In this document: piece by piece, positions 2,603-50,909 of the stretch
How the letters are laid out: the number at the start of each line of letters is the position of its first letter
How positions within the stretch are numbered: position 1 is the first letter of the stretch
NCBI GenBank assembly: GCA_000961585.1
Contig: LADN01000070.1
Span: forward strand, 1-64,000
DNA length: 64,000 nucleotides
Direction of reading: 5' to 3'
Source: Peptococcaceae bacterium BRH_c4a
GTDB lineage: Bacteria; Bacillota; Desulfotomaculia; Desulfotomaculales; Desulfocucumaceae
Translations under genes and position numbers: made by a program
The notes under the pieces: generated by a model
Told to the model about the DNA's origin: nothing
Seen by the model: the letters and a program-made list of their open reading frames with translations, nothing else
Databases searched by the model: none

Positions 2603-3853
2603 TTATGCCGTTTCTTCTTTTTTCTTCTTTCTGTCCACCGAAACCATTAGAGGTTTTTCTTTCTTTAAAATGTTGTCCCTGGTTATTATGCATTTGGCTA
2701 TATCCTGTCGTGAAGGTATTTCATACATCACGTCCAGCATAACTTCCTCCAGTATAGCTCTCAAACCCCTGGCCCCGGTTTTCCTCTTTAATGCTTCCTG
2801 AGCCACGGTTTTCAGGCCATCCTGCTGGAATTCAAGGCTCACGCCATCAATATCGAACAATTTCTCATACTGTTTTACCAGGGCATTCCTGGGCTCGGTG
2901 AGAATTCTCACCAGGGCCTCCTCATCCAGAGCCTCCAGTGTCACTATGACTGGCAGCCTGCCTACAAATTCGGGTATCAGACCGTATTTCAGAAGGTCCT
3001 CGGGCAAAATGTGTTTTAGAATTTCCCCTATTTTCTTTTCCTTGTGAGTCTGTATTTCGGCCCCGAACCCCATGGTTTTCTTACCGATTCTGTTCTGGAT
3101 TAACTTGTCGATACCGTCAAAGGCGCCTCCGCAGATAAAAAGAATATTTGTGGTGTCCAGCTGAATAAATTCCTGGTGGGGGTGCTTGCGTCCACCCTGG
3201 GGAGGCACACTGGCCACAGTACCTTCCAGAATCTTCAGCAGCGCCTGCTGAACCCCCTCACCGGAAACATCCCTGGTTATTGAGGGATTTTCAGATTTAC
3301 GGGCTATTTTATCAATCTCGTCAATATATACTATTCCTTTTTCTGCCTTCTCCACATCATAATCCGCAGCCTGAATCAATTTCAGCAGAATATTCTCGAC
3401 ATCCTCACCAACATAACCGGCCTCTGTAAGAGATGTGGCATCGGCTATGGCAAAGGGCACGTTTAAAAGACGAGCCAGCGTCTGGGCCAGCAAAGTTTTA
3501 CCGCTTCCGGTAGGTCCAAGCATGACAATATTGCTCTTTTGCAGCTCGACATCATCAATTTTTCCGCCCAGGTTAATTCTCTTGTAGTGGTTATAGACGG
3601 CAACTGCCAGAGATTTTTTGGCCTCTTCCTGCCCTATAACGTACTGGTCGAGAATCCCCTTAATCTCTTTCGGCTTCGGGATATCGCTTAAATCAAGACC
3701 TAAATCCTCGTTCAATTCCTCTTCGATAATCTCATTGCAGAGCTCAATGCACTCATCGCAGATATAGACCCCGGGGCCGGCTACCAGTTTTTTCACCTGG
3801 TCCTGCAACTTACCGCAAAAGGAGCATTTTAGCTGACCCTTCTCGTTAAACAT
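2603..3853 (-). CDS. clpX: ATP-dependent Clp protease ATP-binding subunit ClpX
   Basis: AAA+ unfoldase that feeds substrates into ClpP. The N-terminal zinc-binding domain has cysteines at about 10, 13, 32 and 35 (CSFC and CDEC). Walker A is GPTGSGKT near residue 114 and Walker B is VYIDEIDKI. The sensor and C-terminal small domains are complete, and 416 aa is the family length. It lies 11 bases after clpP, which indicates one tig-clpP-clpX operon. Confidence 0.97.
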
Positions 3854-8883: not shown

Positions 8884-8958
<75 letters not shown>

Positions 8959-47965: not shown

Positions 47966-48206
47966 TTCTCAATTTACCTCCATTTCTCAAATTTCCGTCA
48001 TCCCTGATTATTTATTTGGTTGGTTACGTTATTTCCGTGGGGATGGGCAGGGGAAGGCCCCCTTAACCTTTCTTTTTCCCTTATAACCTGTGCTATCCTC
48101 CCTAAAATCCACTCAGGACAAGGAATTGCTAAACTATTTCCAATTGCTTTGTAGCAAGCCGTGTCCGATGCCCCGGGGATGTTGGTCCAATTGTCCGGGA
48201 GTCCCA

Positions 48207-48809
48207 TTAGACGCTCGCACTCGATGGGAAGTAATCTTCTGACTGCGTAACCCATAACAGGCCTGCTCTTTTTGCCTGCATGTAATGCTTCCCACAAAGC
48301 TCTTTCGAGTGTGCCAAGTCCCCACAAACTTTGCACTTCTTCCTTAGTGGGATATGGTAGGCTAGTGGATCCCCATATTTTTTGAAACGAATATAATGCT
48401 TGTTGCAAAATCCTAAACCCTTCGCTGGTTGCCCACAAATTACACAATATTTCTGCCGACTGTGCTTTAAGTTGTGACAACTCCTGCAAAGTCTCTCCAG
48501 GTTCTCCGGTTCGTTGTTCTTGTAATTGTTGTCCTTGTGGTGAACATCCATCGCATTCGGTTTGCCACACTCCACGCATGGTCCCGGCGGAATCAATGCC
48601 CTTGATCTGCTGTGGTTCGTTCCCCAGTTGTCCGACTCTGTTTTTGGTTTTCCCTTGAACCCTTCCGCCATGCACTTCTGATTGCAATATTTCCTTTTGT
48701 TGAAGTGAAACAAGCACTCCAAGTCCCCATTCGGCAAACGCTTTCGCTCCAATTTTGTCCCGCAGGTTTCGCAGTATTTTTCCGGGGTGGGCTTGATTGG
48801 CGTTGCCAT
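48207..48809 (-). CDS. HNH endonuclease-like protein nested in the methyltransferase
   Basis: 200 aa with its own GGAGGTG site seven bases before the ATG. Four or more CxxC pairs (YCETCGTKL, KYCNQKCMA, CVECGKPNAMD, CVICGQPAKG, CKVCGD) surround an HNH core, VHHKDNNYKNNEPENLERLCRSCHNLKH. It is read in another frame of the methyltransferase C-terminal part, whose own frame stays open across the whole gene and continues into motifs IX-X. So both frames seem to be coding. Confidence 0.8.
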   Translation of the reverse strand: MATPIKPTPEKYCETCGTKLERKRLPNGDLECLFHFNKRKYCNQKCMAEGFKGKPKTESDNWGTNHSRSRALIPPGPCVECGKPNAMDVHHKDNNYKNNEPENLERLCRSCHNLKHSRQKYCVICGQPAKGLGFCNKHYIRFKKYGDPLAYHIPLRKKCKVCGDLAHSKELCGKHYMQAKRAGLLWVTQSEDYFPSSASV

Positions 48810-50009
48810 CTTTTTGCACCTCCGTAATTAATCCGCCGTCACAGTCAAAATCTGTCCCAAGACCCCCGCCTCCCCGCTCCCTTGCCGGAATAGTGGGAGC
48901 AATTGATTCACAAATATATGTCGTGCTATCCGGCTTATCTGCCTTACTTGCCTGCGCTGATTGCGTGGGCTATTTCGTGCTGACCGCCGGGGCCAAAAGC
49001 TACGTGCGTAGCTCCACCTGCTCTCAGCGTCGGGCACTGTTCAATGGTTTCGCCCATGCTTCTGGTTTTCTCGCTTTGGTCGCCGTTAAAGCCAATAGCC
49101 AATTGAGCGACCGCTTGTCCACTGGCCAAGTCAAGGGTATACGACAATTCCTCCGTTATCCCCCATCCGTTACTGCTTGTCTGTGCTGTTCTTCGCACGG
49201 CGTAGGATGGTAATGGTTGGGCAACGCACGGTTGTCTCTGCCCTCCCTGCATCGTATTAAGAGTTGGACTTATACCCCCCCCCGTGAATTCTGGGGCATC
49301 CGTCTTGGCTTCTTGGTTCAAAGAGGACTGTCCCGCCTGTTCCTTCAGTGCCATCTCCAACACCGGCGGCAACTTTTTCCCTCGTTTTTCGGCCCTCCGG
49401 AGAATCCCAAGACATGCCTTCGGGCTCAAATAGTATTTCGGCGGAACATCTGTTTCTAAAATCGACGACAATGAAGATTCTACGCCTCCGTTGCGGAACT
49501 CCAAAGTGCTTGGCATCCAGGATCGTCCAAGCCAATTCTCTGTCGGATGTTCTAACCACTCCATGTTTTGCCCACTTTCCAGATCGAGGCATTGGAATGT
49601 CGGATTCCGTGAGTTCTTTGAGGACGGCAAGGAAGTCTTGTCCTTTGGAGGCAGAAAGGAGTCCAGGTACGTTTTCGAGAACAATGACTGCTGGATATGC
49701 TCCACTTGTAGCATCCCTCATTTCCCTAATAATCCTAACCAACTGAAAAAATAAACCCGATCTATTTCCTTGCAAGCCTTCTCTTTTTCCAGCCACTGAT
49801 AGGTCTTGACAAGGAAAGCCGCCCGCTATGATATCCACCGGTTCTATTTCGGCCCCATTAATATCTGTCACGCTTCCGAGGTGAACCATTTCGGGAAAGT
49901 GAGTTTTTGACACCGCTATTGGGAATGGTTCAATTTCCGATGCCCACAATGCCTTAATTCCGTGCCTACTGGCTGCTAAGGGAAAGCCAGCTATATTCCG
50001 TCAAACAGA

Positions 50010-50597
50010 CTACCCAACTTTAATTTTTGCTGTTTTAACATTGGCATCACCTGCCTTTCGCATCGCATTATGTATTTCCATGTGCTCCTTGAATGTAACA
50101 AGTTTCAGGTTTTCTATTCTGTTATCAGTTTTATTACCGTTTATATGATGAACTATTTCTGTGTCGGAATGTCCCGGCCCAAACCAATTTAAATATCTAC
50201 CTAAATACTTTTCCATAATCAACACATGCTCCATAACATAGCCACCACATTGTTTTGCTCTCGGATGCTCATGACATTTAATCAATACATAGCCCTTATC
50301 GCTTAATGTTTTACCGCCTTTCCAATATGAATTTTTGTTTCCATATTGGTTTCTAACGGCGCAACTCCTTGACTTAATGCCGTTGTTCTTCATGCATCGC
50401 CATATCGCTTTTTGTTGCACGCCTAATTTTTCAGCAACTTCTTTTTGTGTCATACCTGATTTATACATAATTTTTACCAGTTCAATATCTAACGGGGTAG
50501 ATTGCATTAATGACCTTGCTTTTCTCCACTCAGACGTACATCTTTTCTTAGCTGATTCTGACATTTTTCTTCTTGTTTCTTCTGAGAACTCTTTCAA
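50010..50597 (-). CDS. HNH homing endonuclease interrupting methyltransferase motif I
   Basis: 195 aa from TTG at 50597 with GGGAGGAG six bases upstream. N-terminal NUMOD/HTH-like region (MTQKEVAEKLGVQQKAIWR) for DNA recognition, then an HNH_3-type nuclease core MEHVLIMEKYLGR and EIVHHINGNKTDNRIENLKLV. It lies exactly between DG and IAG of motif I. With only about 14 and 15 bp between the gene and the exon-like flanks there is no room for a self-splicing intron, so it is a free-standing homing-type gene. Confidence 0.88.
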   Translation of the reverse strand: MKEFSEETRRKMSESAKKRCTSEWRKARSLMQSTPLDIELVKIMYKSGMTQKEVAEKLGVQQKAIWRCMKNNGIKSRSCAVRNQYGNKNSYWKGGKTLSDKGYVLIKCHEHPRAKQCGGYVMEHVLIMEKYLGRYLNWFGPGHSDTEIVHHINGNKTDNRIENLKLVTFKEHMEIHNAMRKAGDANVKTAKIKVG

Positions 50598-50679
50598 TCA
50601 GCACTCCTCCCGTCAAACAATGATCCCAATTTTATTTGTTGATAATCACCCACATGGCCACCTTCTTTCGGTATACCCA

Positions 50680-50892
50680 TTATATTTGTCGTGGATTTTC
50701 GGCATAACCGCCTTCCAGGGCAGACGAATCCCCTTTATTCTGGGCGGCAATAAATTTCTTCAGGTCTTCTTCCTCAATCCTTATGAGTTTTCCAATTTTG
50801 GTGGCCGGGAGTCCTTTTTTTGTCCAGCTTATTACTGTGGCGTGGCTCGTCCGGTACTTTTCTGCTATTTCTCTAACTGTAAGTACAGGCAT
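50680..50892 (-). CDS. Excisionase/MerR-type HTH protein
   Basis: About 70 aa. LTVREIAEKYRTSHATVISWTKKGLPATKIGKLIRIEEEDLKKFI is a single winged HTH of the AlpA/excisionase (HTH_17) group. The second ATG (50892) is better spaced from AAGGAAG. Its 3' end contains copy 3 of the 29-bp element, and its stop overlaps the methyltransferase ATG. Confidence 0.8.
   Translation of the reverse strand: MPVLTVREIAEKYRTSHATVISWTKKGLPATKIGKLIRIEEEDLKKFIAAQNKGDSSALEGGYAENPRQI
50696..50724. repeat. 29-bp repeated element, copy 3
   Basis: 27 of 29 bases match copy 2. Unlike the others it lies inside a coding region, the last codons of the HTH gene, just upstream of the methyltransferase start. Confidence 0.6.
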
Positions 50893-50909
50893 AAACATAC
50901 TTCCTTTCT

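Follow-up and report, generated by a model that had tools for sequence, protein, structure and literature searches.

The WHO elements of the yeasts Torulaspora and Lachancea home by swapping the 3′ end of FBA1 for a diverged copy, such that the target gene survives and resists cutting, with pieces of the former end left behind as duplicates (Coughlan 2020, PMC7282813). In fungal mitochondria, the endonuclease ORFs termed mORFs carry a replacement C-terminus for the gene that they adjoin; the native end is stranded, and the replacement ends have nucleotide identities of 64–81% and protein identities of 94–100% (Beaudet 2013, PMC3630166; Paquin 1994, cited there). Phage genes are split by the free-standing HNH genes T4 mobA, with the bypass of gene 60, and Aeh1 mobE in nrdA, and the added sequence in T4 is thought to protect from cutting (PMC2988022, PMC5009743). 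The ShiLan domain, an HNH gene in an actinophage C5 methylase, is neither an intron nor an intein; its first 11 residues resemble 11 residues beyond the insertion site, a similarity that was discussed as a possible intron feature and not as an end replacement (Arsenault 2025, PMC11855218).

The locus described here lies in a prophage region with terminase, portal and tail genes, within the window (the whole stretch of 64,000 nucleotides that was analysed) of a 3.49-Mb genome in 98 contigs. As in the WHO elements, a free-standing nuclease gene adjoins a target gene of which one end appears to have been replaced. However, the WHO elements are yeast nuclear elements with an intein-like nuclease and a zinc finger that act on the 3′ end of FBA1, whereas the present elements are phage HNH genes with many targets, lie mainly at 5′ ends and place the restart of the target over the nuclease stop. 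The window locus, with its HNH_3 domain at the 5′ end of a methyltransferase gene, is accordingly not a WHO element itself. The mORFs differ in that they encode LAGLIDADG or GIY-YIG enzymes, affect only C-termini and reside in mitochondria, and for T4 mobA and Aeh1 mobE no duplicated gene end has been described, the product being a split enzyme or one made by ribosomal bypassing. The ShiLan domain is read through in frame, with its HNH gene hidden in another frame and away from the gene start, whereas stops interrupt the methyltransferase frame within the first HNH segment of the window.

It is likely that the window locus and its counterparts are free-standing HNH homing elements that replace the end of the gene that they enter. 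The idea has precedents in the WHO elements and mORFs, which act at 3′ ends, and in the similar 11-residue flank of the ShiLan insertion. A search of the open-access literature found no account of phage HNH elements restoring the 5′ ends of genes, subscription papers lying outside the search.

Doubled start and broken body of the window methyltransferase

The first HNH gene sits within motif I of a C5 methyltransferase with a copy of the motif on both sides, just as the first-pass annotation had described (Table 1). The upstream motif I codons, from position 50629, are TTG GGA TCA TTG TTT GAC GGG, and the downstream codons, from position 50017, are TTG GGT AGT CTG TTT GAC GGA. Both encode LGSLFDG (7/7 residues identical), and four of the seven codons differ, all of them silently, as had also been noted. 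The homology is longer than the motif copy recognized at first, extending over 15 codons on each side: the GTG at 50653 and the ATG at 50041 both lie exactly 15 codons ahead of the same Gly, which places the copies in register, with 9 of 15 residues identical (10 when Met is assumed at either start) and 28 of 45 nucleotides identical. The restart, previously assigned to the TTG at 50017, is reassigned to the ATG at 50041, which has its own likely Shine-Dalgarno sequence.

Table 1. Features of the methyltransferase locus in window coordinates.
Feature	Position	Strand	Basis or remark
Small HTH_17 gene, excisionase-like	50680..50898	-	PF12728 E 1.4e-10; directly upstream, context
Stranded original C5 methyltransferase 5′ end, VGDYQQIKLGSLFDG, GTG start 50653, 15 codons	50609..50653	-	AAGAAGGTGG upstream of GTG
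GGGAGGAG, likely Shine-Dalgarno of first HNH gene, at left junction	50604..50611	-	sequence
First HNH gene (HNH_3 nuclease of 195 aa), TTG start 50597	50010..50597	-	PF13392 E 1.1e-10
AAAGGCAGGTGAT, likely Shine-Dalgarno of methyltransferase restart, within HNH gene	50046..50058	-	sequence
Replacement 5′ end, MLKQQKLKLGSLFDG, ATG start 50041, 15 codons	49997..50041	-	overlaps HNH 3′ end and stop
Scar at the junction with two additional bases (GGA ATATAG CTGGC)	49993..49996	-	sequence
Body of the methyltransferase, from the rest of motif I to the motif VIII region	49257..49994	-	PF00145 E 1.5e-36; open in HNH frame
Second methyltransferase frameshift, nine-G run	about 49275..49283	-	frame comparison
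Third methyltransferase frameshift, GCAAGTAAGG	about 48943..48950	-	frame comparison
Second HNH gene, with zinc-finger-like Cys pairs (PF01844)	48207..48809	-	nested out of frame in methyltransferase variable region
Methyltransferase C-terminal part, RRLLPIECERLMGLPDNW ...	47998..48348	-	PF00145 E 4.2e-8

The stranded frame runs on into non-homologous sequence and then reaches a TGA that overlaps the HNH start. The HNH gene lies between two copies of the end of its target gene, one stranded and one a replacement. The encoded protein comprises an HTH-like region and an HNH region with an intact HHINGNK core that is invariant in the alignment, and the PF13392 match lies above the Pfam cut-off, as befits an HNH catalytic domain. 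Because motif I of PF00145 occurs twice, in register, on both sides of the HNH gene, and because the arrangement recurs elsewhere, the duplication is real and not a product of chance.

The replacement copy in the window is out of frame with the methyltransferase body. The two extra junction bases create a stop after FDGI and shift the body into the HNH frame; a search for ATG, GTG or TTG in that frame ahead of motif I found none, so the restart is broken, as the first-pass annotation had deduced from an extra TA. Intact homologues were found for the body. The frameshift at the nine-G run could reflect phase variation, decay or a sequencing error. Given the junction bases, the two further frameshifts and the second HNH gene, the methyltransferase as sequenced is probably dead, and the window locus is classed by its way of working with the gene-end-replacing (WHO and mORF) type, as a decayed case rather than an intact member of it. 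The arrangement does not by itself entail the junction break, since at locus L006, with a related HNH protein (55% identical), the methyltransferase start overlaps the HNH stop in the same way and opens an intact frame of 791 codons.

The methyltransferase frame is open across the second HNH gene (47998–48819), which resembles the ShiLan domain in layout only. In Staphylococcus phage CUB-EPI_14, a relative of this second HNH protein (55% identical) is located within a gene annotated as a DNA-cytosine methyltransferase.

Duplicated gene ends at other phage loci

The survey compared the peptides ahead of and behind HNH genes on viral contigs, and subsequently for a second HNH subfamily. A looser duplication test returned many low-complexity and GC-rich out-of-frame matches, and position limits and control genes were therefore added. 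With a score of at least 49, a position-matched flanking copy was found for 10 of 235 HNH genes versus 8 of 1197 other genes (p 1.5e-4), in a sample that was not random, since positive cases had served as the starting point of some scans. The matches of the control genes are mostly low-complexity or tandem paralogues (e.g. L030).

Motif I of a C5 methyltransferase is duplicated at two of these loci. The copies at L008 read MKNVGSLFSGIGGIE and MLTVGSLFSGVGGIE, with 9 of 11 shared residues silently re-coded and the downstream methyltransferase open, and those at L290 read MKYLSLFSGIGG and MKYLDLFSGIGG, with 8 of 11 shared residues silently re-coded. Other targets are unrelated: the 5′ end of an SSB gene is duplicated over 45 residues at L065 (13/24 shared codons differ silently; SSB homologues of this locus are known at only about 55% identity), the 5′ end with the P-loop of a polynucleotide kinase at L045 (6/10), and the 5′ end with motif A of a DNA polymerase at L163 (6/8). 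Further position-matched 5′-end copies are found at L077 (8/11 shared codons differ silently) and L213. Several of the duplicated sites are catalytic motifs. The new start in the 5′-end cases overlaps or almost touches the HNH stop, and in L008, L290, L065 and L045 the replacement copy continues in frame into the remainder of the target gene. In several unrelated target genes, the end of the stub coincides with the end of the new copy.

The arrangement also occurs at 3′ ends, where a complete gene is followed by the HNH gene and then by a stranded, diverged 3′ end. Such versions are seen in a helicase gene (L154, 4925–5632; 9 of 16 shared codons differ silently) and at the C-terminus of a C5 methyltransferase (L079, 3864–5340); L164 (4934–5930) and L219 are weaker cases with 10-residue matches. 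No duplicated end was found beside the related HNH genes of ctXG6705, Javan74, P52, MulchMansion, phiH, ctDrO704, ctf1B273 and Warpy. At L007 (4400–5588), an HNH gene 53% identical to that of the window follows a truncated methyltransferase, the N-terminal segment of which is fused behind the C-terminus of another methyltransferase and stops short of motif IV; this locus has no methyltransferase copy downstream.

Occupied and empty alleles in Gordonia phages

A near relative of the window prophage with an empty site was sought and none was found. In the Gordonia phages Lton (OP297548) and Gudmit (MN813685), an HNH gene lies directly ahead of a C5 methylase, whereas CheeseTouch (PP208929) shares the upstream gene end and the methylase but lacks the HNH gene, which is thus present or absent at a fixed site. 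In locus coordinates (L294 for Lton, L306 for CheeseTouch), the upstream flanks (2804–2955 and 815–975) are 86% identical and the downstream flanks (3448–3655 and 1001–1208) are 94% identical. Between them, 25 nucleotides of CheeseTouch (976–1000, codons 2–10) are replaced by 492 nucleotides of Lton (2956–3447), a cassette that contains the HNH gene together with a new methyltransferase start, MSETLRTGSLFSGY. All eight codons of TGSLFSGY differ silently between the two phages, versus 8 of 65 adjacent codons for shared residues (p 1e-6). The comparison of methyltransferases with and without the HNH gene that the first-pass annotation called for yields an empty and an occupied allele that differ by an exchanged start plus HNH gene. 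Its reading of a free-standing HNH element that brings a re-coded copy of its target, leaving a complete start to the gene it enters, is supported here and by the recurrence around other genes; the copy in the window is itself decayed.

In both Lton and Gudmit, an identical TGAAC breaks the frame directly behind FSGY, which is the motif I codon boundary at which the window frame is also broken. With the junction frame broken in all three, there is no gene repair in them as sequenced. The methylase bodies of Lton and Gudmit are nevertheless open over hundreds of codons. The two substitutions by which Lton and Gudmit differ within the overlap leave the protein unchanged in the frame of MSETLRTGSLFSGY (MSETLR), where they are silent or non-coding, whereas in the other, annotated frame they destroy the start or change a residue. 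Motif I sits in a frame other than the annotated one (ATGTCCGAAACACTCCGC...), and from the reading frames the annotated methylase starts of Lton (L294 3396–4526) and Gudmit (L293 3396–4781) are probably wrong. No stranded 5′ copy is kept in Lton, Gudmit or L006, and a viral-contig scan with the Lton HNH protein returned no relatives. Vividuovirus methylases (L303, L305 and L311, of Keitabear, Ailee and Lennon) have other nuclease insertions downstream of motif I and were not included in the comparison.

Proposed mechanism and competing explanations

We infer a mechanism of cutting in motif I, repair by copying and immunity through silent changes. The HNH nuclease would cut or nick a methyltransferase allele within its motif I codons, and repair would copy in a cassette composed of the HNH gene and a diverged methyltransferase 5′ end, the latter comprising a Shine-Dalgarno sequence, a start codon and the codons up to motif I. 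The first 15 codons of the host gene itself would be stranded ahead of the HNH gene, or lost, and the methyltransferase would restart on the cassette copy, over the HNH stop. As the same conserved residues are specified by different codons, the gene would keep working and the site would no longer be recognized; in the present prophage, the restored gene would have been broken later.

A selfish gene of this kind, without an intron or intein, could occupy the most conserved and least tolerant positions of phage genes, the price of insertion being a ready-made replacement gene end. It would extend the yeast and fungal-mitochondrial mode to phages and to HNH nucleases, mostly at 5′ ends, would explain why some gene starts are misannotated and suggests how puzzling insertions like the ShiLan domain might be read. 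It would provide a case of immunity by silent recoding that is testable in cultured phages.

The silent codon differences fit such immunity, which the first-pass annotation had suggested as a possibility, and they also fit a simple origin of the new start from a diverged homologue in which purifying selection has kept the residues of motif I, with no adaptation against self-cutting. We give this origin an even chance. Amino-acid changes are numerous as well in the copies of the SSB and kinase genes, and fungal mORF copies are likewise nucleotide-diverged yet protein-conserved (PMC3630166); on the other hand, every one of the eight motif codons differs in Lton. An origin from a homologue is in any case compatible with end replacement by a homing element and denies just the selection on codons.

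It is unlikely that the two extra bases of the window arose through faulty sequencing or assembly and that the restart is really intact. Two more frameshifts in the same gene, one of them in a G run, would be in keeping with an error, but the frame-breaking insertion of Lton and Gudmit occupies the same codon boundary of motif I.

Quite improbable, in our judgement, is the exchange of a whole HNH-plus-methyltransferase unit as a mosaic module beside an old stub, the doubled start then being a remnant of recombination and the HNH gene not homing at motif I. Phages do swap modules, nuclease genes have been reported at exchange boundaries (PMC10448857), and L006, Lton and Gudmit have the HNH–methyltransferase pair without a stub. 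However, the high identity of Lton and CheeseTouch up to the junction and again right after it argues that only the short start and the HNH gene were exchanged, and the coincidence of stub end and new-copy end in several unrelated target genes also speaks against a module.

Within the model of a homing element that replaces the gene end, the junction break might itself be part of the system, with ribosomes skipping or shifting over a few site-protecting bases and so completing motif I. This reading draws on the analogy with T4 gene 60, on the shared position of the break in the window (after FDGI) and in Lton and Gudmit, and on the open bodies of the latter two with substitutions that spare the MSETLRTGSLFSGY frame; we regard it as very doubtful. 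That the HNH gene is removed from RNA or protein as a group I intron or an intein is hardly credible: phage group I introns often harbour HNH genes, and for the related Vividuovirus Gordonia phage Ailee the annotation gives the methylase gene in two parts that enclose a nuclease, but no group I intron core matched Rfam at the gathering score in the window and nine other loci (no intron had been expected by the first-pass annotation either), an intein is excluded by stops and frame changes at both ends, with no intein family among the Pfam results, and, the target codons being duplicated, excision of the HNH gene would leave the motif doubled or absent.

Elsewhere in the window, a TwoAYGGAY RNA motif lies near the clpX gene (2303–2460, − strand), and a tRNA gene (8884–8955, + strand) lies beside the phage-like region as a possible attachment site.
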